In this document: piece after piece, positions 1,201 to 62,420 of the stretch | Numbering within the stretch: the first letter of the stretch is position 1 | Layout of the letters: each line of letters opens with the position of its first letter | Assembly: GCA_905221615.1 (NCBI GenBank) | Contig: CAJNDT010006137.1 | Coordinates: forward strand, 219,405-283,404 | Length of the DNA: 64,000 nt | Origin: Symbiodinium sp. CCMP2592 | Lineage: Eukaryota > Sar > Dinophyceae > Suessiales > Symbiodiniaceae | Direction of reading: 5' to 3' | Made by a program: the position numbers and the translations under genes | Notes under the pieces: generated by a model | Databases searched by the model: none | What the model saw: only the letters and a program-made list of their open reading frames with translations | What the model was told of the DNA's origin: nothing

Positions 1201-1283
1201 TATCGGCGTAGTTTAAGGGCTTTAGACCTGTAGGGTAAGCTTCGAAGCGTCTGTGAGTTTGTCGGCCTTTGTAGTCACCTGCT

Positions 1284-7200: not shown

Positions 7201-10200
7201 CAGGGGATTACTCAGTAGGGGAGTGCTATGAGGTTCTTAAGAATTGCCTTAGGAGGTTGCCTTCAGCTCGCAGGCCGGTTGCAGGACGGCAGGGAAAGGC
7301 CGCTGTCTTTGGTTTGTATGCAGTGGGGGGTTTCCGAGGGGTGACTAAGTTTTCTATTGAGTACCCTTTGCTGGTCAAGTATCTCAATGCCTTTGTAAAG
7401 TCTCAGAATCCGGATGGTGTTTGGACTACCCTGTATGTTTCTCGGAATAGCTGTCTGCCTCCGCATAGGGACCTTCGGAATGCCCTTGAGTTTCCTATCT
7501 TGGCTCGGGCTGTTGGAGACTTTAAGGGTGGGGGTCTTTGGCTTGAAAGCGATACGGGCGTGACAATCCGGGAAATGCCGAATGGTTTGAAGCTGCCGGG
7601 ACATGTCCATGATCTGAGGGATCATACCCTGAAGTTTTCAGCTGAGTCCTGGCATGCCTCTGAAGAGTGGATTGGGGACCGTTGGGTGATTTCAGCTTTT
7701 GTGCCTAGGGACTTTAGGACGGTGTTGTTGGATCATCGGGAGGAATTATTGGAGTTAGGTTTCCCTGTTGATGAGATTAGTTTGGAGGACAGTCCTAGGA
7801 GCGTAGGCAGAGGAAAAGTTGAGAGCCTTCGTGGCAATCCTGAGGTAGAGGGTGAAGCCTGGGTGGTTAGTTGGCCAGACGACCCTTTGAGTGGGAATGA
7901 TGTTCGGGGGTTACGGCGGCTTCATGAAGGTACTGCTAGGCTTTGTTCTTTGCTGACGGAAGAGATTGTCGGGGAATTGAGGGATCCAGAGGGTCTTCTT
8001 CAGATTGTGCATCAGCTTGAGCAAGAGGAATTGCGGCGGGATTTCTTGGAAGAGCTGTTAACGCGCTGTTGGTCTGAAGAGGATCGTGTAGGATCGTTGA
8101 AGTCTTTGACACTTGAAGTTCCTTTAGTCGAGCGACCGGAAACCGGTAGTGAGCAGTTTTTGCAGACTAGGAATGTAAGCTTGGTGGAGGCTCGTGGCGA
8201 GCTCGCCAAATGGAGGGATCCAGCTTTAGAAGAGGTAGTGAGTCTTGAGGATACGAACCGAGCGGTGGATCGTGTATCTGTGACTGATGTAGATCAGTGG
8301 GCTCGGGATGGTATCTTGATTGTGCAATTGCCAGGAAAGGCGGTTCTGACTAGGAAAGCAGGAACCGGCAAAAGGCGGTGTAGAGCGGTGTGTTGCGGGA
8401 ATTATCTTCCTACGGATAAGTTGGGGTTGACCCGTGAAGAGCTTTATGCCTCTGGGGCGGAGTCCTTGTCGGTGAAAGTAGCCCTGGTGTTTGCGGCGAT
8501 GCATCCTATTTGGGTAGGGGTCACGATAGATGTAAAGTCAGCGTTCCTTTATGCTCCGATTCGTTCTGAGCATCAGGGGACTGAGGAACGTATCATCGTG
8601 AAGCCACCGCATTTCCTGGTGGAGCTGGGTATCCTTTCTTCTGAACATAGATGGTGGATTCGTAAGGCCCTTTATGGGTTGCCCACATCCCCGAGAGATT
8701 GGGGTAGGTATCGGGACTCAGAGTTCCGTAAGTTGAAGGTCTGTCACCAGGGGGCAGAATATCGCTTGATTCAACTGAAGTCCGATGACGCACTATGGGT
8801 TCTGCAGAAGGTTACTGAAGAGGGCCTTGGGGAGACTGCTGGGATCTTGGTGGTTTACGTCGACGACTTGGCGCTGTTCGCGGAGGCTGGCTTAGCCCAG
8901 CAGTGCATCAAGGCGATTCGTGACCTTTGGAAGACCTCGGATCCTGAATGGATTGGGGAAACTCCGGTGACTTTCTGCGGCTTGGAGATTGTTCGAGTGG
9001 AACGTGGCTACCGAATTTCTCAGGGAGCCTATATTAAGGAGCTGCTTTCGAGGTACAACGTTACTGAAGATGCGACGGTACCGGTCACCAAATGGATTGA
9101 TCCGGAGTTGCCGGAATCTGTTTCGGCCAATGAGGTCAGAGAAGCACAGGCCATTACAGGAGCGTTATTGTGGGTGGCAACCCGAACTAGACCGGACATT
9201 TCCTACACCGTGTCTCGCTGCGGACAGCAGGCGACGAAGGTTCCTCAATTGTCCATCAGTTTGGGTATGCAAACGTTGGGATACTTGCGTTCCACACAGG
9301 ACTTTTGTATCGAGATCCCGTTTGAGATTAAGAATCTTTTCTCGGAGCACGGGTCACTTGCCATGCCGCGTACAGAGAAAGTGTTGGAGTTGTACACTGA
9401 TGCTTCTCACAGCCCAGGTGGAGCTAGATCAATGCAGTCCATTTTCCTTGTATGGAGATCTGTACCTTTGGCTTGGGAAGTGACCAGGCAACCGTTCACA
9501 ACACTGTCATCTGCGGAGGCGGAGCTAGTCTCTATGGTGCACGCGATCCAATTGGGGGAAAGCATCCAACCCTTGTTGGATGAACTCCTAGGGGAGGACA
9601 CGCAAGCGTGTCTCCTAGGAGACAACGAAGCAGCTTGCCGAGCTTTTGACCCAGTAAGCGCATCCTGGCGAAGTCGCCACCTGAGAATGCGCGCGGTCTC
9701 GGGCCGCGAAAGAATCACCGCTGGTTTATTAAGAGTCTGTCATTTGGCAGGCGACCTGCAGGTGGCGGACCTCGGAACCAAACCCCTGAGCCGAGCTAGA
9801 ATCCTAAGACTATTAGGGTTTTTAAACATAGGCCAACCTTTGAGCCCCGAATCCCAGCGAGCCTCAGCAAGGGCATTGAGTCGAGGGGTTCAGGGTCCTT
9901 TAGATGTAACTCCGGAACTTGTTGCAGGTTTGGCCCTTTTGGCAATGATCCCTCGAGTGAATGCCCAGCCCGACAGGGCGTTGGTGTCTGAGGGAGCTGA
10001 TTGGCTCGCGTGGGTAGTAGCTGTGTTGATGATTGGGGTATCGGTTCTCTGGAGTGGTTTTCTTTCGAGTTGGTTTGAGGGGAGCCTTGAGAGTGCCTTG
10101 CTTTCGGGTTTTGCGGAGCTTGCTGTTTTGGACGAAGCGCTCGTTGAGTCGTTCTTGACGGATGCCGAGTTAGGTGAGCCGGTTTTGGAAGCAGGGGCTG

Positions 10201-12722
10201 AGGATTCTTCAGGGTCCGCGGGGGAGGTGATAGGTGGTTCACAGGAAGGGCTTGCCGAGACTTGTGGAGAAGAGTCTGCAGACGAGTTCTCTGAGAAAGA
10301 GTGGCTCGAGGCTGAAAGAAAGCTGGCCGAAGCTGAGAGGAGTTCCGGGTTCACTTTTGTTCAGAGGGCCCGTGTTCGTAAGCAAGTTGCCTTAGGAGGC
10401 TTGGTTGAGGTGCCAAACTTTTTGCAAAGGCGAGGACCTGTACCTTCCTGGTTCTCTGGGGTGAGCCCGGAAGGGTCTGAGGCGGAGGAGGCTCCGCAGC
10501 CAGAACTCTTCTCAGCTGCCGTAGCCTTGTTAGGAACCTTGAGTGTGCACTCGGAGAGACTGTGTCAGTTTTTGGGAATGCAAGTCGGAGTTTGGCGGGC
10601 GTTAAGATGGGTTTCGCGTGCCTTCGGCCACAACGTGGTGATTGCGGTGTTGGAGCAGTGGTCTAACACTGGAGTTGACTGCTCTTTACCTGGAGATTCT
10701 AGCTTTCGAGCTGAGTTTCGGTATGATGGTTCAACCTGGGTTCCGGTTAGCTTGGGGGCTTGCGAACAGAGTGAAGGCTTCGGACAGGCTTTGCCGGAAC
10801 AGGATCAGGGCAGTGTTCCATCGGATTCTGCTGGTCAGGTTAGGGGGAGTCCGTCGGAGTGCCCACGAAGTGGACAGGATCAGGGCAGTGTTCCCTCGGA
10901 TTCTGCTGGTCAGGTTAGGGGGAGTCCTGGTTGTTCAGATAGTGTGGGATTAGGTTCGCAGGCAGCTTCTTCGGAGATTCGTCCTCAGGTTCAAGTTGGA
11001 GGAAGCTCAGGAAGTCAAGATCCGGTTGCAGTTGTGGGGCCTCAGGTTCAAGTTGGAGGAAGCTCAGGGAGTCACGGTATGAGGGCTACGACAGACCTGG
11101 ACTTGTGTTATGAGGACTATTGCGGAGAGGACATGCTAGTGGACAGATTTCCGTATGTGGGTTCCTGGCTCAATAGGCATTATCTTATACTGCTGTTGTC
11201 GCAAGTTGGAGAGACCGTCCTATGGACACTTGGGGAGAGGGCTGCAGAGTGGTTTTCCTTAAGAGCTGTTTCGGCAGGAGTTCGGTATGCCATTGTCTTC
11301 GCAGTTGTAGAAGTGCTTCGGCGAGGAAGGTATTCCCTGCTGTACGAGGGCTCAGGGTGGATCGAGGCCACTGAAGCTTTTCTTTTTCGTGGCCACCCCA
11401 TGGGGGTTATTCCGGAGGGAGAGCTGCTGGAGGATCGAGATTCTCCTCCGAGCGCTGTTTCTTTCCCTTACATAGAGGGACCTCCGGGTATGGTTGCGCA
11501 TTACCTCTGGCGAGTGTTCATGTTAGTTGGGTGGTCTGTTTTGGATTTTCTTGGGGATAGAGTCAGAACATGGGGTTTCTTCCGGGCCACGGCAGACGCG
11601 TTTAGGAGCTGTACTACCTTGGCAGTGACGGTTTGGCTTCGGCGAACTTACCAACTTTATGTGGCCCATCCACAGGCGACCTATGATGCCGCAGAGGCTT
11701 ACATTCAGAATGGGGCCATAGGGTATCCGTTTGCAGCCGTGGAAGATAGGGATGATGATGAAGCGATTGATGAGCACCGACTTGGGCCTCCAAGGCCTGA
11801 GACTCCAGAGAGGTTTCCGTTTGGGATGATGTTTGATGAGTTGTACGAGGGCTCAGGTTCGTCGTCCAGCGGAAGCCAGTCAACTACGGAGCCTTCTGTA
11901 GGGCTGTCTGAGTCGGTTATGCCGGTAGAAGAGGAGCCGGGTGAAGGTGACCCGACTGCCGTCGCCTTGCCTGAGCTGCCTGCTCCAGGGCCAGGACTTT
12001 GGTATGAGGCTAGGATTGGGGCTTTTTTGGTTCACTATGTCGATGATGAGTTCCTGGTGACCCTAGAAGGTTGGACTCAGGAGGCGATCGAAGGCGTTGT
12101 GCAGAGTCTGAACAGTGGGGATTGGACTAGGTTTCAGGCGGGCCTAGAGGCTGGAGGCTTCGGAGGTCCTTTGTCTGAGAGCTCAGCTCAATCCCTCGAT
12201 GCTGCACTGCCTTTTTGGGTACCTCCCGCGCTTAGTTGGCCAAGGGTTTTTGGTTTGGTTGTTCTGATTTGGTGGGTTTTAATTCAGAGTGCTTCAGCGT
12301 CCCAGGATGTTGCCCTTTACGGTTCGGGAGAGTCTGCCGTGTGTGTTGACACAGTTGCTCAGGGGCCTTGCGAGGATGGGGGACGAGGCTCTCCAGAAGA
12401 CTGTAGTGGAAGCATGCTAGCTTGGTGCGTCTTGGTGACCTTGATCATAGGAAGCTGGGAAATGTTGCGAATAGGGCTCTGCCGCTGTAGGAAGCTCCCG
12501 GAGCGTAGCCGGACAGTTGGGAGCCAGACTGAGGGTACATATGTTCCGTTGCCTCTTGAGTTAGGGGTCCCTCATCGTGGTCGTATTCTGTTTTGCCTAT
12601 GGCGTGCTGGCTACCCTGTAGATCCTGCAGATTATGATGAGGAAACTCAGGAGGATTTCCACTGGCTCGTAGGTGATTATCTGGTCCGTCAAGAAGAAGC
12701 CGAGCCGTCGGGGTCCGACTGA
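1284..12722 (+). CDS. Giant copia-type Gag-Pol polyprotein with oxygenase-like domain and membrane-spanning tail (3812 aa)
   Basis: Single frame, no frameshift or stop. Approximate residues: 210-235 short coiled coil; 240-545 Gly/Pro/Ser-rich; 552-790 Gag-like helical region; 852-873 CCCH zinc finger (C-x8-C-x5-C-x3-H); 882-895 CCHC knuckle; 1011 protease DSGAT; 1493 onward integrase HHCC motif; catalytic Asp1532, Asp1685, Glu1720 (last pair 34 residues apart); 2061-2133 oxygenase-like H-x-D, distal His and Arg; 2416 reverse-transcriptase Asp and YVDD at 2525-2528; RNase H Asp2706, Glu2745, Asp2780; 2835-3812 tail with hydrophobic segments near 2879-2895, 2907-2927, 3655-3675 and 3712-3730. 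It drives cytoplasmic particle assembly, reverse transcription and nuclear integration. A roughly 90-residue insertion separates the first two integrase aspartates. Tail function is unknown. The first ATG lies 95 bp after the LTR. Confidence 0.96.
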   Translation: MDTVSRRRRAGGAGEPEAESAAFEAAYQAALGQAGVDGLQPTPGLKGEASPNTLEMGQGSGVTGAEPLLVAHPFHSERVQSEIQLLRNRPSSLDEDGQRLRDGAEGRAIAFGGAAEDREDEQGAEPDYSAVFHMNEATGPRVARVETSGESRGPLSERSFPGTPVDSGRTRMATGHLVEEKPEPATMASGAGVSTTGDEELVPDSRGAGGMEAMLMQILEENRNLKRRLEQAEQRSHSSWHTGTTGEPAVAASSPMSFAAGGVRGSNAPYVNPAVGMGQPVQPPPSLEAMLGSSHFPASSGQGFELRAGQDCSAEPLNLPVSRPEGGASGLGGSIPGENACALALYEGPRPNPTLTGPIVGAEESGPQAQTMRQFTAQALEMSGGFHTPRSTGAGTSGFDANGYPLSPGGTVIRPPPLPPPTASAAGFPGAGQAPSGRGLGFAEIAGSSGFGVAGSCPAVSPGPLLGGASGFPLSGFGGANVGQGGLPLGSSQLGGGPVAAASLGVFPGSSEVSAGFPIGLGGSGAQPGFGTQGNPGLLGQGTRPEEPARYITELPKLVQADLSTSAIVCGNWLAQIRQIFMGLSPSADLWFSSVEEAASQGYSRWLVADPLGRVSLDPASIVATFDPVRFQRVESRAVSLLLAALPQAVRDDVITNRWLASSSILFRVLCLFQPGGASERALLLTTLVQPEPLKSFRDALAGLRRWQQNLVRAQEVRATLPDASLLLKGVDSATAGLLSTNPMISFRVNAFRHRIALDYNPTTAGVVQLVRLLQAECEAVALAEGSGGDKRARGAALAVPKDPPPAPKPPPAPAPNTGNPGTGPTATVAAATATGNEPKGKGKGKPQELLCHKFSDGSGCRFGDSCHFKHDRARARREGKCLACGQAGHYRPECSLVAPENRQTTGDSSSDASPKAPGKGGPKAKPKPKPAAQAKGVTEDVSPKPEGGSANPSGSSSGGGVSQEALLAEAAKLLKGVSLKPLRLQEPAPDATWLRSALTSASDPAFCLVDSGATNALRPANDGELRGCRVIRVDLASGGTDLRVNEFGTLLHVGQCQVILPANYLVELGFTITWKRKGCRIRHPKEGSLKVEVVKGCPLIPREVGLAILARYEERVRQSRGLKRLEVDPVSFGLDQSTGRAWLKEKVQEVGSEGLTAEVQLCILRVWFPHVPLELLKEACEVSVLEEEEGCSGSPWNRRLRRSVERGGRESLLVCSSASGEGWKGYGRVLKLVGCGRELSDDRAFKCVLKWALSGFIGGFVGEGRVERTQGSASEPGLSSGTPDRDEMIANLRFFLLVVVAQAAKDGRLRGTHSESLDSGLDQPPAGIVEPGKLVEWALQRAKDKLSPSERARVKSSGVSPPVFVAWGQPWEVQQDGDRFLRGFDEGLSSFKDAYGFHVAELDLSWFGLGRSNRVRLLTSSWFLFEHVHGRFGPGLSLGGVALRSSGWPLGFLREVQRFWLNWGSELGKLDEVGQRQVLLRKLSGRERFERHIANDHCPYLKGCPVCVRAQGRRRAHWRSGFPSVHSASFDIAGPFIPGQSFDPVASGRDKGKGYRFFLACSYAVPSGYQPLDRDPSSGGDAVPKVASVLGEFEDGQAGSLGSDGLMCAVTHRVRTKRPESPEGGVGPIDWGEDDPPQEAGERRNLFIGVPLRTKGGKEVLGHIQSVINQLESQGYPVQRYHADRAQELRSTPLVAWLRDKGISPSWTPGEAPAGNHAELAVQNLKSGIRRLLLASRIGREFWPLALLHISARNWCLFSELLGVPRAPLLAFGLPVEARKRTRTGFESQWQARTLRGLYIGQAPHTPGGHLVLVSDEGVNRVLLTSTVFPVRLPKPKHRITGKRSFDVALRSCALVSEPELQWPVAARVVAATQNALCIDARFAPGGEPSLGNWEFLSFSDSGTSGFVARLEIAEDFGCLEVGEAFDGCWTESEEEEGLEVWGSPGEPRGIVASVGLSDDELKEWLQAKIEAGDYSVGECYEVLKNCLRRLPSARRPVAGRQGKAAVFGLYAVGGFRGVTKFSIEYPLLVKYLNAFVKSQNPDGVWTTLYVSRNSCLPPHRDLRNALEFPILARAVGDFKGGGLWLESDTGVTIREMPNGLKLPGHVHDLRDHTLKFSAESWHASEEWIGDRWVISAFVPRDFRTVLLDHREELLELGFPVDEISLEDSPRSVGRGKVESLRGNPEVEGEAWVVSWPDDPLSGNDVRGLRRLHEGTARLCSLLTEEIVGELRDPEGLLQIVHQLEQEELRRDFLEELLTRCWSEEDRVGSLKSLTLEVPLVERPETGSEQFLQTRNVSLVEARGELAKWRDPALEEVVSLEDTNRAVDRVSVTDVDQWARDGILIVQLPGKAVLTRKAGTGKRRCRAVCCGNYLPTDKLGLTREELYASGAESLSVKVALVFAAMHPIWVGVTIDVKSAFLYAPIRSEHQGTEERIIVKPPHFLVELGILSSEHRWWIRKALYGLPTSPRDWGRYRDSEFRKLKVCHQGAEYRLIQLKSDDALWVLQKVTEEGLGETAGILVVYVDDLALFAEAGLAQQCIKAIRDLWKTSDPEWIGETPVTFCGLEIVRVERGYRISQGAYIKELLSRYNVTEDATVPVTKWIDPELPESVSANEVREAQAITGALLWVATRTRPDISYTVSRCGQQATKVPQLSISLGMQTLGYLRSTQDFCIEIPFEIKNLFSEHGSLAMPRTEKVLELYTDASHSPGGARSMQSIFLVWRSVPLAWEVTRQPFTTLSSAEAELVSMVHAIQLGESIQPLLDELLGEDTQACLLGDNEAACRAFDPVSASWRSRHLRMRAVSGRERITAGLLRVCHLAGDLQVADLGTKPLSRARILRLLGFLNIGQPLSPESQRASARALSRGVQGPLDVTPELVAGLALLAMIPRVNAQPDRALVSEGADWLAWVVAVLMIGVSVLWSGFLSSWFEGSLESALLSGFAELAVLDEALVESFLTDAELGEPVLEAGAEDSSGSAGEVIGGSQEGLAETCGEESADEFSEKEWLEAERKLAEAERSSGFTFVQRARVRKQVALGGLVEVPNFLQRRGPVPSWFSGVSPEGSEAEEAPQPELFSAAVALLGTLSVHSERLCQFLGMQVGVWRALRWVSRAFGHNVVIAVLEQWSNTGVDCSLPGDSSFRAEFRYDGSTWVPVSLGACEQSEGFGQALPEQDQGSVPSDSAGQVRGSPSECPRSGQDQGSVPSDSAGQVRGSPGCSDSVGLGSQAASSEIRPQVQVGGSSGSQDPVAVVGPQVQVGGSSGSHGMRATTDLDLCYEDYCGEDMLVDRFPYVGSWLNRHYLILLLSQVGETVLWTLGERAAEWFSLRAVSAGVRYAIVFAVVEVLRRGRYSLLYEGSGWIEATEAFLFRGHPMGVIPEGELLEDRDSPPSAVSFPYIEGPPGMVAHYLWRVFMLVGWSVLDFLGDRVRTWGFFRATADAFRSCTTLAVTVWLRRTYQLYVAHPQATYDAAEAYIQNGAIGYPFAAVEDRDDDEAIDEHRLGPPRPETPERFPFGMMFDELYEGSGSSSSGSQSTTEPSVGLSESVMPVEEEPGEGDPTAVALPELPAPGPGLWYEARIGAFLVHYVDDEFLVTLEGWTQEAIEGVVQSLNSGDWTRFQAGLEAGGFGGPLSESSAQSLDAALPFWVPPALSWPRVFGLVVLIWWVLIQSASASQDVALYGSGESAVCVDTVAQGPCEDGGRGSPEDCSGSMLAWCVLVTLIIGSWEMLRIGLCRCRKLPERSRTVGSQTEGTYVPLPLELGVPHRGRILFCLWRAGYPVDPADYDEETQEDFHWLVGDYLVRQEEAEPSGSD

Positions 12723-17851: not shown

Positions 17852-17956
17852 ATATGGGAGTTTCCGAAAATAGGGGACCCTGGTCAAGTACCCTAAATAG
17901 TAGGATCCGTATTAAAAGGACCCCAGAATAAGCCTAATTTTCGGAAACTCCCATAT
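17852..17956. mobile_element. MITE, family B (105 bp)
   Basis: A perfect 20-bp inverted repeat ATATGGGAGTTTCCGAAAAT at 17852-17871 is matched at 17937-17956. Sister copies lie at 30035-30144 and in a rearranged form at 26920-27112. Confidence 0.85.
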
Positions 17957-25235: not shown

Positions 25236-25334
25236 GGTTGATGATATAAATCCTGCATGCCTCATAATCAGGTATATGCCATAATTACCATAGTTCAGGG
25301 TCCTTAAGGTCATGCAGGATTTATATCATCAACC
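25236..25334. mobile_element. MITE, family C, copy 3 (99 bp)
   Basis: A perfect 24-bp inverted repeat GGTTGATGATATAAATCCTG… at 25236-25259 and 25311-25334, flanked by a GAAG direct repeat (25232-25235 and 25335-25338). The ends differ from copies 1 and 2 inside the repeat (ATATAA against GACAAA), yet both arms changed together. Confidence 0.9.
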
Positions 25335-25741: not shown

Positions 25742-25894
25742 CTAGTTCGTGGTTGGGATCGGATTAAAAATGTGCATCTGTTCATTCCTTATTGGGTTCA
25801 AGTACCCATAAAAATACAAAAAGATACCCATTTTTATTCCTTATTGGGTTCAAGTACCCCTAAAAATGTAAAATGTTACCCAGCTATGACAAAG
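25742..25894. mobile_element. MITE, family J (153 bp), same family as a VWA-gene intron
   Basis: Begins CTAGTTCGTGGTTGGGATC and ends …CAGCTATGACAAAG, flanked by AAGA on both sides (25738-25741, 25895-25898). It matches the 103-bp element forming the 56843-56945 intron. It carries an internal direct duplication of a TTCCTTATTGGGTTCAAGTA block (about 49-bp spacing). Here the duplication read on the minus strand is TCTT, so it does not provide a G-type donor. Confidence 0.85.
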
Positions 25895-30034: not shown

Positions 30035-30144
30035 ATTTGGGAGTTTCCGAAAATAGGGTGTACATTATTTGGGGGTCCTTATAATAAGGATCCTACTATT
30101 TAGGGTACCATATTAGGGTCCCCTATTTTGGGAAACTCCCATTT
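30035..30144. mobile_element. MITE, family B, second copy (about 110 bp)
   Basis: ATTTGGGAGTTTCCGAAAAT… (30035-30058) against 30121-30144, 22 of 24 positions matching. The core holds TTATAATAAGGATCCTACTA, as in 17852-17956. Confidence 0.85.
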
Positions 30145-54546: not shown

Positions 54547-56403
54547 TCATCAACAGCATCGAGACTGCGGGCTTTGCGTTTCGATTCCGCCGTGACGGGA
54601 TAACTGAGTTGCTGAATGACGAAGTGACTCAGTGACTCAGTTGAACATCTTACAAAACAACTCAGGTACTCACCCCATCTTTTTCTTCAGTAAGTAAACA
54701 ATGTCCGGCCCGGCCTGCTCACGGACTGGCGCTCCCAGACGGATTGGGCCACGTGGCTACCGTCAAGGAGAGAATGTTTCGAACCGAGAGGTTCCGGGCT
54801 TCGGGGGACGCACGGGGGATGGGCTTCTAGGTTCGGGGTTCAAACCCTGGGATAGAGCGGATCAAAACATGGTAGTACGACTCGTAAACGGATTCGTGGA
54901 CCGAGCGGCTTTTACGGGCGGGGACAGCGTAACACCGCACTAACCCAACCCGTGGAGCCCTAGGTTCCAGCCCTTGAACAAAATACAAGTGCGCCAATCA
55001 TCAGGACACGGTTTGACCCGCACCGAGCTCCAGAACCTCCACCCTTTCGCGTTGTGAGCAGGTGTAAGTAAGACGCATCCCTCGTAGAGGTTACAGTAGC
55101 CGTTTCCACAAGGTCCTGGTGATACTGTTTCCTTGCTCAGGGACTGTTAATGTAAGTCGGTGATTGACCCAGAATCAAGGCTTGCTGCCTCTGGGTTGGC
55201 TTCGAGGGGTTAAGATGTAGGGCTTTTCTGTGCGAAGAGCCAGAACCCTGAAATCCCGAAAGCCATGATACCAGTGAAGGGTTTGAGGTTGAGGGTTTTG
55301 AATACTTAAATTCGAACCAAATCCGAAGCCCTGCAAAGTTGAACGCGACGCCAAGGAAAAACATCAAAGACCCTAAAGCTTCTCAACACCTATCCAACAA
55401 AAACCCCTGGGCCCTAAGGCACCGCTAAGGCCCTCAAGAATCCCCTAAACCCTGGGCCATCTGCTTTCTCTACGGTTAGAGCCGGAGTTCTGGTCGTTGA
55501 GCCGACCCCTGGGCTTTGTGGGCTTGGGGATTTAAGGTACAGTATGGGTTTGGGAGGGTTTAGGGTTCAAGGATGTTTAAGGTGTAGGGTTTGGAGTTTA
55601 AGCTTCAGGCCTTAACGAAGTCGGTTAAATCAAGGTTGCAAAGATTCTTATCCCAGAGTGCTATCGCAAGACTTTCGGGTCTAGCCCAAGTAAAGGTTCA
55701 GGTGGTTAGGGGTTTAGGGGTTGTCTTGGGGCCTGTGGGCTTTAGGGGAAATGTACTTCGAGGCTTCACTTCAGTCTTGGGGTTGACGGATTCGGGGTGT
55801 GGGTTCGGGGGAAACGTGGATGGAAGTGGGGAGGGTGGAAAGGGCCTAGTGTTTAGGGTTAGTTTACGGTTGAGGGATGTTGAGGGCTTGGAAATCAGAG
55901 CTAGGGATCTTTACAAGTGGAGTGTCAGACAAAGCACGAAGCGGCATCCAGCTGCATGACCTCCATGGCGGCGAAGAAAAAGCAGGCCGCAATCCATCCG
56001 ATGTCGGCATTCACGAGCGCCGCAGGAAACAGCGGGCCGGAGTCGACATCACCCTGCAGCTTGGTCACCTGGAAACCCTAAACCCTGAAACCTAAGCCGG
56101 CTTAAGGTTTAGAGTTTAGTGTAGCGTTTAGGGTTTAGGGACCTGGATCCATAGTCCAAGGCACCCAACCCGAAGTACCCGGTCCTTCAGTTTATGAAAT
56201 CAGACTCAGCGGCTCTTCTTTGAGGGTCTCCACCGCAAGGGAACTCGGCCAAGAGCTTCGAAACGATGAACCTGCGAGGATAAGATCAGAGCTAGTCACT
56301 CAAAGGGTGCGGACACCCGCAAGACGGGATCCGCAGTAGGGGGAGCAACACAGAAGAAACCTTGTAGTAGCCTCCGAGAAACCCTCATACCCTTAAAGTA
56401 ACT
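54547..56403. other. Spacer upstream of the VWA gene's 3' end
   Basis: Plus frames 54701-54943 (80 codons) and 55591-55959 (122 codons) lack motifs, and the latter is embedded in degenerate TTTAGGG-like sequence. CCCTAAA/TTTAGGG units appear at 56077-56140. Downstream of the VWA stop codon no clear polyadenylation signal was seen, as expected for dinoflagellates. Confidence 0.35.
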
Positions 56404-56842
56404 TTATGATACCCTGCGATCCTCGTCGCAGACCTCGGCCAAAGTCGCCATCCCAGCAGACTCTTCCTGGCCGGGTTCAGCAACCGTGAGGCCAAAGACC
56501 CGCAGGCCATCTTCGCGCAACAGCTGAAGCTCTTCCAGCAGAGGAGGGGAAGGTGCCTCCACCTCACCATCGGTGACGAGCAAGATGTCAGCCGTGCGCC
56601 ACTCGTCTCGCAGCCGCCGCGCACTGGCAGCCAGGGGCGTCTCCAGGTCTGTCCCGCCACCGAAAGATCTGCTCAGGAACGCGAGAACATCCTGCCAAGC
56701 TGGCGCCGGAATGGGTGCCAGTGGGACTTCCAGCTCTTCAAGGTCATCTGGGCCTGAGAAGAAGTAGAGGTAGCAGGGACGCCTCTCGGCTTCAGCGAGC
56801 ATCAAGACTTCCAGCACGGCTGCCTTGGCAATCGCCTCTCTC
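56404..56842 (-). CDS. VWA gene exon 12 (last seen exon)
   Basis: Reads AIAKAAVLEVLMLAEAERRP, CYLYFFSG, FLSRSFGGGTDLETPLAASA and ADILLVTDGEVEAPSPP; the Thr of GGGTD and the Asp of VTDGE complete the metal site. Ends at TAA 56404-56406. Family members usually carry a few more residues after 'CD', so a further exon is possible. Confidence 0.93.
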
Positions 56843-59800
56843 CTAGTTCATGGTTGGGATAGGATCAAAAATTTACATGTTTATTCCTTATTGGATTTAA
56901 GTACGCATAAAAATGTAAAATGTTACCCGACTATGACAAAGTCTCCTTCCCGCCATGCTCCGAGAGGTGTCCACGCAGCAGATCAGGGGTCCCCTCTCCT
57001 GGGCCGGGCGGAACTCCCTCCACTTCAGCGTCTCCGCCTCCTCCTCGACCCAAGCGCTGCGCTCGTAGCTGAGCCTGGGCTCTTGTTAAGGAGTTTAACT
57101 TAAGCTACCATAATGGTAATAGGGATCTATATGGGTGGTTGTCAAAATTCTTGTCTATTTTTGGAGGTCCTTAATATACTACGGCACCTAAGAATTAGCT
57201 AGGGTACCCAACAAGGGACCATAATTTTGACAACTATCCATATATTAATGGTATCTCAACCTAAATCCCTTAACAAGAACCCTGGAGTTGGTTTAACTTA
57301 AGTGACCATTATAGAGATCTATGTAGGAATGGTATCTTAGCCTAAATCCCTTGACAAGAACCCAGGAGCAGGGTTTAGGGTACCATAATAGAGATCTACA
57401 TAGGAATGGTATCTTAGCCTAAATCCCTTGACAAGAACCCAGGAGCAGGGTTTAGGGAACTTAAGTGACCATTACAGGGATCTACACAGTAATGGTATCT
57501 TAACCTGAGTGCCTTAACAAGAACCCAGGAGCAGGGCTGCCTCAGCGCGCCTGAGGCGGAAGAGCGCCCGGGCGCCCGCGGAGCTTTGCCGCGGCGGCTG
57601 GGCGTTCGCGTAGGCCAGGAGGGAGAGCTCGCTGGGCAGCAAAAGCCTAGGCTTAGGGCTTAGGGCTTAGGGATTAGGGCCTAGGGCTTAGGGTTTAGGG
57701 TTTAGGGTTTCCCATGGTAAGCGGCGCGCCTCGACCCAGAGGGTCGCGGGGCGGCGCGCCGAGCTGGACGCGACATCCCACCCCAAGACCACCCAGACAT
57801 TAAATCTATTAGGGTTTAGGGTTTTTCTTATGGGGTTTGGACGACGTACAACGTACCCTTAGCGTTGAAGTCTTGCTCATAAGCTTTCGTCGGGGGGCCG
57901 TTACCAGCGGTACTGAATGTTTGGTGGAGCGCAGGGCGCCGTCCGTACGGGCAGTTCCGGCGCCGTCCGTACGGGCAGTCGGAGCCGCCCGAACCGGCCG
58001 TCCGTACGGGCAGTGGGGTCCGCCGCCGTCCGTACGGGCAGGTTGCTGCCAAACCGGACGGGCTTCTAAGGGTGTCCATCACTAAGAAGGCAAAGATAGG
58101 GGAGCACCGTCCGTACGGGCAGTGTGGGGACAGTGGGGTCCAGTCTGCGGTCCACGCCGTGGTCTCCTTCATTAAGAAGGCAAAGATAAAGGAGCGCCGT
58201 CCGTACGGGCAATCGGAGCCGCCCGAACCGGCCGTCCGTACGGGCAGTGGGGTCCTCCTGCACGCGCCGCCGTCCGTACGGGCAGGCGGCTGCCAAAGTG
58301 GCCGTCCGTACGGACAGGCCTCTAAGGGTGTCCTTCACTAAGAAGGCAAAGATAGGGCAGTGGGGTCCTCCTGCACGCGCCGCCGTCCGTACGGGCAGGT
58401 GGCTGCCAAACCGGCCGTCGGGAGCGCCGTCCGTACGGGCCCGTCCGTACGGGCCGTCCGTACGGGCGCTTGGCGCGTACAGGGGCCCTGCATTTGGTGT
58501 ACAGAAGAATACACGGCCGCTCGAACCGGCCGTCCGTACGGGCAGTTGGCTGCTTTTCGGAAATCTGGAAAACTGAAGCTGATTTTGGAGTATTAAATTC
58601 TTTTCATAAAATGTATATTTTAAGCTAGGCCAGGCGCCAATCTCGAGGTCCCCTCCTTTCTTTTCATGTGGCTACTCTAAACCATGCCCTCTCCTCCATA
58701 AGGAGACTGGGGCCAGCCTGTGAGCTGTCAGGGAGTACACACGCCGCCGTCCGTACGGACAGTTGGGTCCAGCTTCAAGACTTCACAAGCCAGTTAGGAT
58801 CCCGACCCTAGGGTTTAGGGTATTAAAATATACTATTATTTATTTTCACGCTGGAAGCGTAAATGCACCCTCCGAAGTGAACGAATGCGGGTACGGAGCA
58901 CGAAGCTAACTCTTCGCGCTCAAGCTGCAAGCATTAAGCATCCGTTCTTGAAACGGATGCCGGTGCTCAGCGCACGTGCGCTGGTGATGCCATAGGCTCC
59001 TAGACGTCGCGACAGGCATCACCAGCTTTAGTTTAGGGCTTAGTGGGATTATGAAGGCGCACCCTAAACCCTTTGTTCCTACTATCTACATATTTGGTTT
59101 CAAATTTCGGGAAGCTAGGAAGAGCCTAGGCTTTTTGTTCCACCTATCTAGGAGCCTGATTAAGACACCTTGGGTTTTCTCAGGGTTCCTTTTACGAACC
59201 CTATTATATTGGAGTTACAGGGCCAGGGTTTCTGATAATTATCATGCATTGTTTAATTTTAAACTAAGGGAAGCTAGGAGCAGGCTGCCATCGGAGCGAG
59301 TGATGCCCGAGGTCTCGAAGGGGCTGCGGTCGGAGCGCACGACGCCCTCGGCCTCTTTCGACTTCGCACGCTGGGCCCGGTCGAAGCGCAGGGAGGCGTT
59401 GAGGCCGCTGCGCCGACCCATCCTGGGCTCTTGCTAAGGGATTGAATTTAAGTTGCCATAATGAGGATCTATAGTAACTAATACGTTAATACGGTTTCCT
59501 ATTATGGTAACTAATTAATATGGTTTCCTATTATGGTAACTTAAGTTAAATCCCTTAACCAAAAAGGATCCTATGATGGAAACTTAATTAAAATCCCTTA
59601 ACAAGAGCCCAGCATCCTCTTCACGAGGCTCTTCAACTCAGGAAGTCGGCCCAGCATCTTCCTGAGCACCAGGAGGTGCTCCCAGCCCACGGGCTCGGAC
59701 ACAGTGCCCGGCTCCGTGCCGGTGCATGCGGCGAAGGACTCTTTCCTTACCGTTAGTAGGGAATGGAAGAATGGTAGTAATATAATAGCAATATGGCAGT

Positions 59801-62420
59801 AATTTGGTAGTAATAGTAGTTATAATTATACACCATTCCTCCATTCCCTACTAACCAACGGTAAGTTTCGAAGCGGACTCCGAGCCCTCCTCGGAATCCG
59901 AGGGCGCCCAGGACTGCAAGCGAGGCTTCGCGGCCTCTGCCGCCAGCTCCCGCCAGGTCTCCACAAACTGACGCGTCAGCTGCTCTGCCAGCGACTCCTC
60001 CGACCCACTGCCCTCCCCCTCTCCATCTGCCTCGAGCTGCTGCTGCGAGCCATCGGCACTTTGCCCCTCCTGGTCCTCCTGGATGCTCTGCAAGTTCTCG
60101 ACTTCGCCATCTTTCGCGGCGTCCTGTCGCGCAAACGCTGCTTTCCAGACAGGCTCGCAAAAGAAGCCCTTCCTGTCTGGTGCAGAGACCCACCCCCAAT
60201 TTTCCGCAGCAGAATGCCATCCCCGAGCAGGTCTCCGATGGAATTTCTAGCAATCGGAGCAGCAACACTCTGAACTCTAGCCTTTCAACAAATAAGGAAC
60301 ACCAGCGTTGAGGCTTCAGCTTCGAGGCAAGTAATTACGCATGTCCAGTATGTGTAGATATTAGATCTACGCATATATATATATATATATACAAATACAT
60401 TTTCTGTGTATATACATATGTACACATAGACATTCGCTCTTCTGTTGATGTCGTTTATGCAAATACACAATGCAAGGCTTCAATTAGAGTCAACAGGCTT
60501 CGTGAAGCCTAGAGTGTATCCAAAACCCTCAAACCCTAATGCTCTAAATCACAAACCCCGATATGCCGCATTCTACTGCCCTAAAGCCTAAACCCCAAAC
60601 TTCAAACTAAGCCCTAAAACCCTCAAACCCAAGCCCCAAAACCCAAACCTTGAAACCCTGAACCCCAGAACCGTAAACCCCTAAATCCAGGATCGAAAGG
60701 CCTCCTCACCGGAGTCGGTATCTGAGATGGACCTTGCGCTGACCTCTGCAGCTGCAGCTTCCTGGGCTCTTGCAACTTACGGTTTCGATTCTCGGGTTTC
60801 GGGTTTAGGGTTTAGGGTTTAGGGGTCTTAGGCTTTAGGCTTTAGGGTTTAGGGTTTAAGGTCTAGGGTTTAGGGTTTAGGGTTTTAGGCTGTAGGGTTT
60901 GGGGTTTGATGGGGCTTTTGAAAGGGGCTTCAAAGGGTTTCACTCGGGTATCATAGAGGGCTCATAGGGTATTTACAGTGTGTGGGTTAAGCAAACCCAT
61001 GCAAGGTTCCATGAAAGTTGACTTACTTAAGTTACCAGAGTTACGAAAGCACGGTAGTTGCTGTAATATAGACGCCTAGATCGTTACCCATACTATTGTA
61101 GTTATAGTAGAAAAACCCACAACCCTATTCTAATTATCAAGGCCCCTATAGTAGACCTCTACTATGGCAACTCAAACGACATGCCTTACCAAGAGCCCAG
61201 AAACTCCGATCTCCCTCAAGCAAGGAACATTCCTTAAATTATATTACGGAGACTATTCTGACTTCGGGTAGTTCCTTGATGAAGGGATGATATTGCAGTC
61301 CCCTAAACCATAAACCCTGTAGATCCCCTTGAAAAAACCCTGAAAGGAACTTTTGGTAGATCCGTTTAAAGGAAGCCTATGTAGATCCTTTGAAAGAAAC
61401 GCTCGGAGTCTCTGGGAGCCCAGAATCTGATGGCTCGGCATCAGAGCCGTCTCCGGACTCTTCTGCCGTGCTGGCACTGGAAAGGAAGGACCACAGGAAG
61501 GGGCTGCTGTTTGATTGCCTGGGTTCCCCGGTAGCCCCTTGCTGTACTAGTTCGTTTTGAACAAGGGAACACAAAAAGAGAAAGTGCAAAAAGGCACTAC
61601 TCAGGAACCTAGTTGCGAATCCCCGTCGCTTTCAGAAGCTTTCACCGCCTTCTGAAAAGTCTCCACAGCTTGCAGGACGTTCAGCAGAACCGTGTCGACC
61701 AGCTCGGGCTGCTCAGACAACAGCGTCGGAAGATCGATGTCCTGAATACCCATCAAGAGCTGTCTGCGAAGTGGCTCGGGAGGCCAGGTATGCTTGCCTA
61801 TACTGAACTTAGAACCCTAGCAAAAATTATTGTTTTAGCTGTTTCTTAGGGGTTTTAATAACAAACAATAAAAAATCATTTCTAAGTACCCCTAAGTTGC
61901 TGTCTTCGGGCACCTGCCCCCGAACTAAAGAGGAGCGCCACTCACTCAGACCGTCAACCGCGGCCTCCACATCCGCCGGTTTGTCGCAGCTTCGCGCCAA
62001 AGCTGCCCTAAATGCAGCTAACCTAGGTTGGCCCTTTAAAGCCTCTGAAAAATATTCTAGGGTCCTTGTAAGCCCGATAAGGGAAAATACAAACTGTCCC
62101 AAAGGCCTACCTAGTAACTCTGCTGGCATCTGCAAGAGAGCATCCGTCACGCTGAGCTCCTGGCAGTCTTCTGTCGCGTGGCGGGAAGCGCGCTGCCAGC
62201 CGCAGCCGCGCCTCCTACAAGCCAGGGAGCCCCAAACCGCGGCCGCAGCAGAAATCGCTTCCCTCCCGTCGAACTCACCAGCACGCAGCTGACAAAGAGG
62301 GGTTTTATACGAGCCCACAAGGGGGCTGGGGCTTCTATACAACCTCTCTTTGGGAGCCCTGAGCCCCGATGGTAACCGCGACGTGCCCAGGAGATGCGGC
62401 TCAAGCCTTGCCACTTCCAT
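56404..62420 (-). CDS. ViaA/CoxE-like VWA (MIDAS) domain protein, 12-exon gene
   Basis: Exons (5' to 3'): 62420-62358, 62288-62119, 62022-61901, 61797-61609, 61546-61428, 60761-about 60692, about 60270-59870, 59745-59617, 59422-59282, 57646-57533, 57074-56946, 56842-56404. Codon phase closes exactly at nine junctions; exon 6/7 is unresolved. The C-terminal third matches the bacterial ViaA type: LPELKSLVKRMGRRSG, LLPSELSLLAY, RGPLICCVDTSRSM (metal-site D-x-S-x-S), FLSRSFGGGTDL and LLVTDGEV. The N-terminal half is acidic, Ser/Glu-rich and unrecognised. ViaA works with the MoxR AAA+ ATPase RavA, so a chaperone-like role in the cell is inferred. The protein is about 650 residues and soluble. Oddity: Arg replaces Gly in DTSGS. 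The C-terminus after VCDEDRRVS may continue in an unseen exon. Confidence 0.85.
56843..56945 (-). mobile_element. Intron 11: introner, family J (103 bp), GA-AG
   Basis: Coding strand GAGA + CTTTGTCATAGTCGGG… …CAACCATGAACTAG + GAGA. A 153-bp relative lies at 25742-25894. Splicing gives …DTSRSMAGR|REAIAKAAV… in frame, as expected for ViaA-type proteins. Confidence 0.92.
56946..57074 (-). CDS. VWA gene exon 11 (129 bp), metal-site exon
   Basis: Reads LSYERSAWVEEEAETLKWRE then ERGPLICCVDTSRSMAG. The Asp-x-Ser-x-Ser triad of the metal-ion-dependent adhesion site is present; the usual Gly between the serines is Arg. Confidence 0.93.
57075..57532 (-). mobile_element. Intron 10: H-family introner with nested G MITE and tandem copies (458 bp), GC-AG
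   Basis: Coding-strand borders GCTC + CTGGGTTCTTG… …AAGAGCCCAG + GCTC. Inside, a family-G MITE (57131-57241) interrupts the first H copy, and about 57275-57530 holds three tandem partial H copies (each ending CTTGACAAGAACCCAGGAGC or similar). Removal joins …EAAL|LSYERSAW… in frame. Confidence 0.88.
57131..57241. mobile_element. Family-G MITE nested in the intron-10 introner (111 bp)
   Basis: ATGGGTGGTTGTCAAAATTC faces …TAATTTTGACAACTATCCAT. ATAT borders both ends. The H element resumes on each side (…AGGGATCTAT before, TTAATGGTATCTCAACC after). Confidence 0.88.
57533..57646 (-). CDS. VWA gene exon 10 (114 bp)
   Basis: Reads LLLPSELSLLAYANAQPPRQ then ARALFRLRRAEAA. LLPSEL is a hallmark preceding the VWA domain in this family. 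Confidence 0.9.
57938..58770. repeat. CCGTCCGTACGGGCAG dispersed array (15 copies) inside intron 9
   Basis: The motif, whose centre CCGTACGG is a perfect palindrome, occurs 14 times between 57938 and 58545 and once more at 58747. Spacing is irregular (14-90 bp). Between copies are repeated spacers: CAGTGGGGTCC, GCCGCCCGAACCGG and CACTAAGAAGGCAAAGATA (three times). Two copies read CGGACAG instead of CGGGCAG. It is not a CRISPR array (irregular spacing, repeated spacers). Confidence 0.92.
58938..59025. repeat. Cluster of three palindromes in intron 9
   Basis: A stem GCATCCGTT/AACGGATGC with 5-base loop (58938-58960); a perfect 14-bp palindrome AGCGCACGTGCGCT (58969-58982); and an 11-bp inverted repeat CTGGTGATGCC/GGCATCACCAG (58981-58991, 59015-59025). 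Confidence 0.85.
59282..59422 (-). CDS. VWA gene exon 9 (141 bp)
   Basis: Reads MGRRSGLNASLRFDRAQRAK… and ends TSGITRSDGSL; corresponds to the ViaA segment 'GR…GLxRSDDxxRLLPxEL'. Confidence 0.9.
59423..59616 (-). mobile_element. Intron 8: introner, family H (194 bp), GA-AG
   Basis: CTGGGCTCTTGCTAAGGGAT ends are inverted at both sides (59423-59612); CATC is duplicated (59419-59422, 59613-59616), GATG on the coding strand. Splicing yields …LVKRM|GRRSGLN… in frame. The core holds a GGTTTCCTATTATGGTAACT block repeated in tandem. Confidence 0.92.
59617..59745 (-). CDS. VWA gene exon 8 (129 bp)
   Basis: Reads ESFAACTGTEPGTVSEPVGW then LLVLRKMLGRLPELKSLVK. The last part matches the conserved segment before the VWA domain in ViaA (LPELKRLAEQLGRS-like). 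Confidence 0.9.
59746..59869 (-). mobile_element. Intron 7: introner, family L (124 bp), GA-AG
   Basis: A 120-bp element at 59746-59865 with inverted ends CTTACCGTTAGTAGGGAATG and its complement; TTTC is duplicated (59742-59745 and 59866-59869), i.e. GAAA on the coding strand. The donor GA comes from the duplication and the acceptor AG from the element. Splicing gives …SESAS|KESFAAC… in frame. Confidence 0.9.
59870..60273 (-). CDS. VWA gene exon 7 (about 400 bp)
   Basis: Reads GDLLGDGILLRKIGGGSAPD and KGFFCEPVWKAAFARQDAA, then a strongly acidic Ser/Glu/Gln segment and a helix (LTRQFVETWRELAAEAAKPR). The 5' edge is approximate. The overlapping frame on the same strand (59753-60268) is less protein-like and runs into the intron. 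Confidence 0.75.
60274..60691 (-). other. Intron 6 (about 420 bp), borders unresolved
   Basis: Contains CCCTAAA-like units (60540-60680) and a TA microsatellite (60370-60392). No introner ends or target duplication could be identified. Confidence 0.45.
60692..60761 (-). CDS. VWA gene exon 6 (about 70 bp)
   Basis: Reads EAAAAEVSARSISDTDSGEE, acidic. The 3' boundary is uncertain: possible donors are GAGG after …DTDSG or GATC near 60694. Confidence 0.65.
60762..61427 (-). mobile_element. Intron 5: H-family introner with nested M and D MITEs (666 bp), GA-AG
   Basis: The outer ends are H-type (minus strand CTGGGCTC…, …GCAAGAGCCCAG). A family-M element (61199-61419) sits in the H 5' end with GGCTC duplicated on both sides; a family-D element (about 61058-61155) lies further in, and TTTAGGG units fill 60797-60905. 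Removing the whole block joins …DAEPS to EAAAAEVS… in frame. Confidence 0.8.
61428..61546 (-). CDS. VWA gene exon 5 (119 bp)
   Basis: Reads QQGATGEPRQSNSSPFLWSF and a Ser/Glu/Asp-rich end (TAEESGDGSDAEPS); likely a disordered linker. Confidence 0.8.
61547..61608 (-). other. Intron 4 (62 bp), GT-AG
   Basis: Shortest intron of the gene. Minus strand GTTCCTGAGTAG… …AACGAACTAG. CTAG is present at both borders, so the exact cut cannot be fixed within 4 bp, but GT-AG keeps the frame (…DSQL|VQQGA…). Confidence 0.8.
61609..61797 (-). CDS. VWA gene exon 4 (189 bp)
   Basis: Reads PPEPLRRQLLMGIQDIDLPT then a leucine-rich helix (ELVDTVLLNVLQAVETFQKA). Corresponds in position to the helical N-terminal region of ViaA-type proteins, though sequence similarity there is weak. 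Confidence 0.85.
61798..61900 (-). mobile_element. Intron 3: introner (103 bp), GC-AG
   Basis: Minus strand GCAA + CTTAGGGGTACTTAGA… …TCTAAGTTCAGTATAG + GCAA. The ends form an imperfect inverted repeat (ACTTAGA/TCTAAGT). The duplication GCAA provides the GC donor. Confidence 0.85.
61901..62022 (-). CDS. VWA gene exon 3 (122 bp)
   Basis: Reads LAAFRAALARSCDKPADVEA and DGLSEWRSSLVRGQVPED; helical, charged. The reading phase fits both neighbours exactly. Confidence 0.8.
62023..62118 (-). mobile_element. Intron 2: introner, family I (96 bp), GT-AG
   Basis: On the minus strand GTTA + CTAGGTAGGCCTTTGG… …AAAGGGCCAACCTAG + GTTA. The 4-bp duplication GTTA provides the GT donor and the element end provides AG. 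A truncated relative lies at about 15143-15205. Confidence 0.85.
62119..62288 (-). CDS. VWA gene exon 2
   Basis: Codes for an Ala/Arg-rich stretch then LSVTDALLQMPA; ends in the middle of a Glu codon completed by exon 3. Confidence 0.65.
62289..62357 (-). mobile_element. Intron 1: small hairpin introner (69 bp)
   Basis: The minus strand reads GCTCCCAAAGAG… to …CTCTTTGTCAG. The arms CAAAGAGAGGTTGTATAGAA and …TATAAAACCCCTCTTTG form an almost complete hairpin. GC donor, AG acceptor. Its length is a multiple of three and it has no stop, so retention would also keep the frame. Confidence 0.55.
62358..62420 (-). CDS. VWA gene exon 1 (21 codons)
   Basis: Starts at ATG 62418-62420 (MEVARLEPHLLGTSRLPSGL). 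It is the first ATG in the open frame, but no experimental or trans-splice site evidence is visible, so the start may lie further upstream. Confidence 0.5.

Follow-up and report, generated by a model that had tools for sequence, protein, structure and literature searches.

How did the introns of the ViaA-like VWA gene of Symbiodinium sp. CCMP2592, most of which are bordered by direct repeats of four bases, come into being? We addressed this question in a stretch of 64,000 nucleotides (contig CAJNDT010006137.1, positions 219,405 to 283,404; hereafter the window), for which an initial annotation had read each intron of this gene as one copy of a target duplication followed by a transposable element. 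Our analysis makes it very probable that the introns are introners, that is, non-autonomous, MITE-like DNA transposons whose target duplication serves as the donor and whose end serves as the acceptor.

The VWA gene and its splice junctions

The predicted coding sequence comprises 2,010 nt including the stop codon (669 residues), and the introns total 4,205 nt. Pfam families PF05762 and PF13519 are both above cut-off in the protein. The best E value in a PDB search was 0.45, and Rfam gave nothing at gathering scores within the window. The closest relative is P0001, named 'viaA', from Symbiodinium sp. CCMP2456 (86% identity); an ENA protein, P0017, is 94% identical across 40% of the query and a relative from S. 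natans 87% identical across 41%, and proteins from Effrenium and Polarella are more distant relatives. The candidate start codon at 62420 has no backing from relatives. The features are as follows.

56206..62420, minus strand: ViaA-like VWA gene, 12 coding exons and 11 introns
62023..62118, minus strand: intron 1, duplication GTTA plus F3 element (CTAGGTAGGCC..GGGCCAACCTAG), 96 nt, donor GT
61798..61900, minus strand: intron 2, duplication GCAA plus F5 element, 103 nt, donor GC
61519..61616, minus strand: intron 3, duplication GCAA plus F4 element (CTAGGTTCC..GGAACCCAG), 98 nt, donor GC
60762..61427, minus strand: intron 4, F1 element with decayed duplication GATT/GAAG (2 of 4 bases), donor GA, with nested F8
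61197..61415, minus strand: F8 element in intron 4, 219 bp, CCAGAGACTCC..GGAGTTTCTGG, exact duplication GCTC
60124..60701, minus strand: intron 5, GC..AG, GCCT/GACG (2 of 4 bases), terminal repeats 4/20
59746..59869, minus strand: intron 6, duplication GAAA plus F2 element (CTTACCGTTGG..CTAACGGTAAG), 124 nt, donor GA
59423..59616, minus strand: intron 7, duplication GATG plus F1 element (CTGGGCTCTTG..CAAGAGCCCAG), 194 nt, donor GA
57647..59281, minus strand: intron 8, GCTC/GCTT (3 of 4 bases), 1,635 nt, CTAGCTTCCC..CCTAG, weak terminal repeat (6/20)
57075..57532, minus strand: intron 9, duplication GCTC plus F1 element, 458 nt, donor GC
56843..56945, minus strand: intron 10, duplication GAGA plus F6 element, 103 nt, donor GA
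56272..56421, minus strand: intron 11, absent from the earlier model, GA..AG, GATC/GTTC (3 of 4 bases)
56206..56271, minus strand: last exon, absent from the earlier model, VHRFEALGRVPLRWRPSKKSR
25742..25894, minus strand: second F6 copy, exact duplication TCTT (starting with G on neither strand)

Most junctions were first proposed from the 4-bp repeats and afterwards checked against the proteins of relatives. The alignment to P0001 is free of gaps over introns 2, 6, 7, 8, 9 and 10, and thus over five of the seven junctions with exact repeats. At the intron 3 junction (the second GCAA), P0001 is shorter by two residues. Intron 1 is a multiple of three in length and free of stop codons, and Polarella protein P0005 runs on without the 32 residues that it would encode (a comparison by eye, P0005 being outside the alignment). 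Introns 4 and 5 were located by P0001 rather than by repeats. The exact reconstruction claimed initially is therefore backed by relatives at its junctions, but the gene end that it had placed at 56404 was wrong, and intron 11 and the last exon had been missed. The stop codon at 56404 falls within intron 11 (56421..56272); the P0001 and S. natans proteins go on with VHRFEALGRVPLRWRP after CDE, which led us to place the last exon at 56271..56206. P0017, which comes from another assembly, also reads beyond CDE into different residues (CDEDPSG..) in the region of 56404-56421. Judging by P0017, this suggests that automatic gene models miss the putative GA-AG intron 11.

Intron borders and element families

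The six repeat types named in the initial annotation are all present, exactly at splice junctions, with GCAA occurring twice. Exact 4-bp repeats (GTTA, GCAA, GCAA, GAAA, GATG, GCTC and GAGA, in gene order) border seven of the 11 introns; one further intron matches at three of four bases (intron 8), in one the duplication has decayed (intron 4), and two (introns 5 and 11) are not assigned to an element. When donors and acceptors of different introns were paired, 3 of 110 mismatched pairings were identical in all four bases, as were 117 of 6,970 GH..AG|G pairs drawn at random from the window. The reading of an intron as one duplication copy plus an element fits the seven exact cases, the case at three of four and the decayed case, and it extends to F2 copies in other genes. 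The rule had been stated for the gene as a whole, and here it stands for the seven exact cases but is weaker in introns 8 (3 of 4 bases) and 4 (2 of 4), and introns 5 and 11 lack the CT that otherwise directly follows the first four bases.

As claimed, the donors are GT, GC and GA (one, five and five introns, respectively) and the acceptors AG|G (11 of 11). In all nine introner-like introns the repeat begins with G and the element ends in AG on the coding strand, CT follows directly after the first four bases, and AG forms the last two. For each exact duplication, a single splice position among the equivalent ones yields both the starting G and the terminal AG. Apart from the G, the nine donors share CT at +5/+6 alone. 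Between GNNNCT donors and the usual U1 consensus, G is the sole common base. When the two ends of each intron were compared as inverted repeats, the matches per 20 bases were 13 for intron 1, 11 for intron 2, 14 for intron 3, 12 for intron 4, 14 for intron 6, 19 for intron 7, 6 for intron 8, 16 for intron 9 and 12 for intron 10. Intron 5 has neither an exact duplication nor terminal repeats, and the terminal repeats of intron 11 match at 4/20.

The introners with at least three of four duplicated bases (62118-56843) are in phase 2 in seven of eight cases (expected 33%, p = 0.0025). We do not press this excess because intron 4 is in phase 0, as are L032 and L049, and L029 and L030, the other two of the four F2 copies borne by other genes, are in phase 2.

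A BLASTN self-comparison with the low-complexity filter on and a cut-off of E 0.01 detected no resemblance between the F1 group and the elements of introns 1, 2, 3, 6 and 10, or among the latter, and we therefore count at least six families in the gene: F1 (introns 4, 7 and 9), F2 (intron 6), F3 (intron 1), F4 (intron 3), F5 (intron 2) and F6 (intron 10). Intron 8 probably represents a seventh, F7, enlarged by other repeats. The several unrelated families proposed initially thus number six or seven, but F1 (CTRGG), F3 (CTGGGTTC) and F4 (CTAGGTT) have their outermost 5-8 bases in common. These shared end bases may point to a common transposase. The elements have the inverted terminal repeats, constant duplication length and shortness of MITEs. 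A 21-base F1 end had no exact match in viral contigs. No gene was recognised around the F6 copy at 25742..25894.

Two elements with other kinds of ends are present in the gene, both nested in existing introns. F8 was inserted within the F1 terminal repeat of intron 4, and its removal restores CTGGGCTCTTGGTAAGG; a TG..CA element with the duplication TATA lies inside intron 9 (57132-57240). The F1 5' end together with GCTC occurs four times in tandem in intron 9, at 57532, 57446, 57369 and 57288 (the last degenerate), so several potential donors exist within this intron.

Other repeats were encountered in and around these introns and elsewhere in the window. Intron 8 contains, at 57932-58764, fifteen copies of a 25-nt repeat that include variants of a 17-mer, GCCGTCCGTACGGGCAG, which is palindromic in part and has 309 forward and 485 reverse exact copies genome-wide (0 for the reversed control), often clustered among the matches listed. 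Degenerate TTTAGGG/CCCTAAA arrays are found in introns and beside the gene (56076-56151, 57650-57711 and 60519-60913). A relative of F8 at 605-706 has 22-bp perfect inverted repeats and flanks that read, by eye, ACTC/GCTC. A MITE-like family with ends GGGAGTTTCC..GGAAACTCCC, not CT..AG, is present at 17856-17952 and 30039-30140 with the 4-bp duplications ATAT and ATTT, and an inverted-repeat element, GGTTGATGATATAAATCC, at 25236-25334 has 24-bp perfect arms, GG..CC ends and the 4-bp duplication GAAG. An open frame of 11.4 kb (3,815 codons) occupies 1275-12719 on the plus strand. When the window was scanned without bias for terminal inverted repeats flanked by 2-10 bp duplications, most matches were chance or simple repeats, and the filters of one scan lost at least one true element, that of intron 7; these scans were therefore left out of the statistics.

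Family F2 and other families in the genome

Searching the 1.098-Gb genome for F2 gave 77 match rows at 40 scored places, from among 983 first-look candidates, and the 39 scored places other than the window's own form our sample. Both ends were located in 36 of the 39 copies, with lengths of 115-336 bp; exact 4-bp duplications flank 23 of these, and 13 have none. Where a copy had several candidate 3' ends, the script chose the flank that best matched a duplication, which favours exact duplications; among copies offering just one candidate 3' end they were found in 15 of 24, and among those offering several in 8 of 12. The first duplicated base in the 23 exact cases was T in nine, A in seven, G in five and C in two in the search orientation, and T in 18, A in 11, G in 10 and C in seven of the 46 readings of both strands. 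F2 insertion is thus not specific for G.

Flanks were joined and open frames spanning the junction, 30 in total, were scanned with Pfam for 22 of the 23 exact copies (one to three frames each, some of them trimmed); in the remaining copy, L038, no open frame of 120 nt crosses the junction. In three copies a match above cut-off extends across the junction: ankyrin in L029 and L030, and LRR in L049. Their coding-strand duplications, GCTA, GTTG and GCTA, all start with G, in either orientation of the element. One ankyrin gene accounts for two of these copies, which lie in opposite orientations on either side of a 66-nt exon (coding-strand GCTA and GTTG), and removal of both yields a single continuous ankyrin reading. 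The Pfam-confirmed coding sample outside the VWA gene is therefore three copies in two genes. All 3 confirmed copies start with G, whereas among the 20 remaining exact copies, each read on both strands, G comes first in 7 of 40 readings (Fisher p = 0.0097, or 0.0024 with intron 6 of the window added, the paired readings of one copy not being independent). Below the Pfam cut-off, L032 is HEAT-like (E 0.0094) and has the G-starting duplication GAAG, and L036, with the duplication TCTT, has a likeness to aspartyl proteases of the retroelement type (E 0.16).

A codon-usage score for coding flanks, trained on the VWA gene alone, was tried and rejected: an obvious LRR exon scored -2.3, compared to 11.5 for the null top 1%, and we replaced this score by junction-spanning Pfam matches as too weak. 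By codon score, 11 exact copies exceed the null top 5%, and the favoured strand starts with G in five of them (L030, L032, L037, L046 and L054) and with another base in L036, L041, L044, L051, L058 and L067, of which L036 and L067 exceed the null top 1%. Pfam scans of L041, L044, L051, L058 and L067 gave no match. Exonic F2 insertions without G on the coding strand may therefore occur. The expectation that G-starting duplications are commoner in intronic copies is borne out for F2 by the Pfam matches (3 of 3, compared to 5 of 23 genome-wide), but not by the codon score (5 of 11). Blind duplications genome-wide, together with G in genic F2 copies, make the G at the duplication start look like a splicing filter rather than a target preference, as far as this small sample of genic sequences suggests.

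For other families, flanks were read at ten places within 199 kb from two contigs. Exact duplications were present at five (TTAG for F3, CTGT and TGAA for F5, GAGG and GAGT for F6), and at the remaining five the duplication is imperfect or cut. F2 elements interrupt unrelated genes (VWA, ankyrin and LRR), and taking them out restores the reading. Three VWA introns hold F1 elements, and F3, F5 and F6 have copies elsewhere in the genome; other host genes are known for F2 alone.

Origin of the introns and comparison with known introners

We propose that an element of any of several families inserts with a 4-bp target duplication, with ends that would read CT...AG on either strand, and that the insertion is blind to the target base. 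Where an element lands in an exon before a G with A, C or T as the next base, the first copy of the duplication would supply a GA, GC or GT donor and the terminal AG of the element the acceptor. Removal of duplication plus element would restore the coding sequence exactly. The spliceosome presumably performs this removal, as the intact protein reading across the introners suggests, and exonic insertions without a starting G would be lost by selection.

Several other origins can be weighed against this one. That these are older, ordinary spliceosomal introns into which repeats were later inserted, the 4-bp repeats at their borders being coincidence or border similarity, strikes us as extremely improbable. 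Later nested insertions do exist (F8 in intron 4, TG..CA in intron 9), and introns 5 and 11, two of the 11, are not assignable to CT..AG elements; nevertheless, in seven of the 11 introns the element ends are the intron ends to the base, the repeats are specific to each locus (7 of 11 own pairs compared to 3 of 110 mismatched pairs), and F2 copies break other genes at the same type of border. The introner reading has its own points against it, namely that intron 5 is without an exact duplication or terminal repeats, that intron 11 is unassigned, that intron 4 has lost its duplication and that the terminal repeat of intron 8 is weak. A transposase with a preference for GNNN targets could place G at the donor independently of splicing. 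All nine introner-like introns of the VWA gene start with G, as do two more F6 copies (GAGG and GAGT) of unassigned setting, but such a preference is contradicted for F2, in which G is the first base in 5 of 23 duplications in the search orientation and 10 of 46 on both strands, and there are the duplications TTAG of F3, CTGT and TGAA of F5 and TCTT of F6; we consider it highly improbable.

Alternatively, pairing of the inverted repeats into a stem, and not ordinary recognition of the 5' splice site, might chiefly direct removal of the introns. This is suggested by the sparse signal that the nine donors share (G at +1, CT at +5/+6) and by the predicted folds of some of the seven introns that were folded (1, 2, 3, 6, 7, 10 and 11): the ends of introns 1, 3, 6 and 7 pair, starting at nucleotide 5 and reaching the final base (z of -1.8, -2.8, -8.3 and -9.7, respectively), and those of intron 11 nearly pair (z -2.9). 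Introns 2 and 10, however, fold no better than shuffled sequences (z -0.4 and -0.6), and their minimum-energy folds are not end-to-end, so the stem as a general requirement is not supported. GA and GC donors are, moreover, usual in Symbiodiniaceae according to PMC11453091, and a stem may assist removal without being its mechanism. We therefore regard hairpin-guided excision as unlikely, though less so than the two readings above.

Returning to introners, it is possible, though we hold this tentatively, that an introner is no specialised element, and that the genome carries a pool of MITE families that duplicate 4 bp and have CT..AG, CC..GG, TG..CA or GG..CC ends. With similar reserve, intron creation might then be set by AG facing outward on both strands, with G at +1 as almost the only demand on the donor. 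In the VWA gene, the families whose ends differ from CT..AG are the two nested ones.

DNA-transposon introns that use the duplication for one splice site are reportedly present in Micromonas and Aureococcus, as Huff et al. are said to have described in 2016; the duplications there are said to be of 3 bp and 8 bp, unlike the 4 bp of the VWA gene. The nearest known system is a congener. In Gozashti 2022 (PMC9860276), introners of Symbiodinium microadriaticum have a 4-bp duplication, inverted repeats, a 3' splice site carried by the element and a 5' splice site carried by the duplication; in some families GC and GA donors reach 50% and 40%, respectively, and a genome can hold as many as 43 families. 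The VWA introners share this anatomy, with 4-bp duplications, terminal inverted repeats and a putative source for each of the two splice sites, and S. microadriaticum belongs to the same genus as the gene's closest relatives; the likeness drawn here is one of anatomy, and the VWA gene has six or seven terminal-repeat families in one gene. Novelty was accordingly overrated in the initial annotation, since the same arrangement is printed for S. microadriaticum in the legend of Fig. 2B of PMC9860276.

Family diversity of this kind has been observed in other dinoflagellates. According to PMC11453091, Roy et al. 2023 reported numerous introner families per genome and high intron gain in five dinoflagellate genomes, and Polarella glacialis has 15 families that each account for 100 introns or more; in this respect the VWA gene resembles dinoflagellate genomes. 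The same text reports 25-74% GC/GA donors in Symbiodiniaceae. Introner elements of Amoebophrya, as described by Farhat et al. 2021 (PMC7789003), have inverted repeats, direct repeats of 3-5 nt at the borders and a proposed hairpin, and canonical GT-AG introns make up 34% and 30% in two strains, most borders being non-canonical (PMC11453091). Inverted and direct repeats at intron borders are thus common to both, but the Amoebophrya direct repeats vary in length and position (PMC7789003), whereas the VWA gene has a constant 4-bp duplication and GH..AG|G borders in 11 of 11 introns. A comparison of the first duplicated base between genic and intergenic copies was not found in the available portions of PMC9860276, PMC7789003, PMC11453091, PMC10666404, PMC10522408 and PMC12768974; Roy 2023 or Huff 2016 may have one.

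The conclusion that the introners of the VWA gene are real, well above chance and not new in kind in their mechanism is well supported by the sequence comparisons. The gene provides a worked example that can be checked base by base, in which 9 of 11 introns are explained, seven of them exactly, and it is joined by a family, F2, that inserts without regard to the base, starts with G in its confirmed genic copies and has placed two copies in opposite orientations in one gene. It also carries a warning that GA and GC donors can mislead gene models in this group, as the earlier model and apparently P0017 enter intron 11. Of interest from here is whether, in this lineage, AG at its ends is enough to turn any MITE family into introners. 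These findings support DNA transposons with ends that mimic acceptors as a driver of intron gain in these algae.
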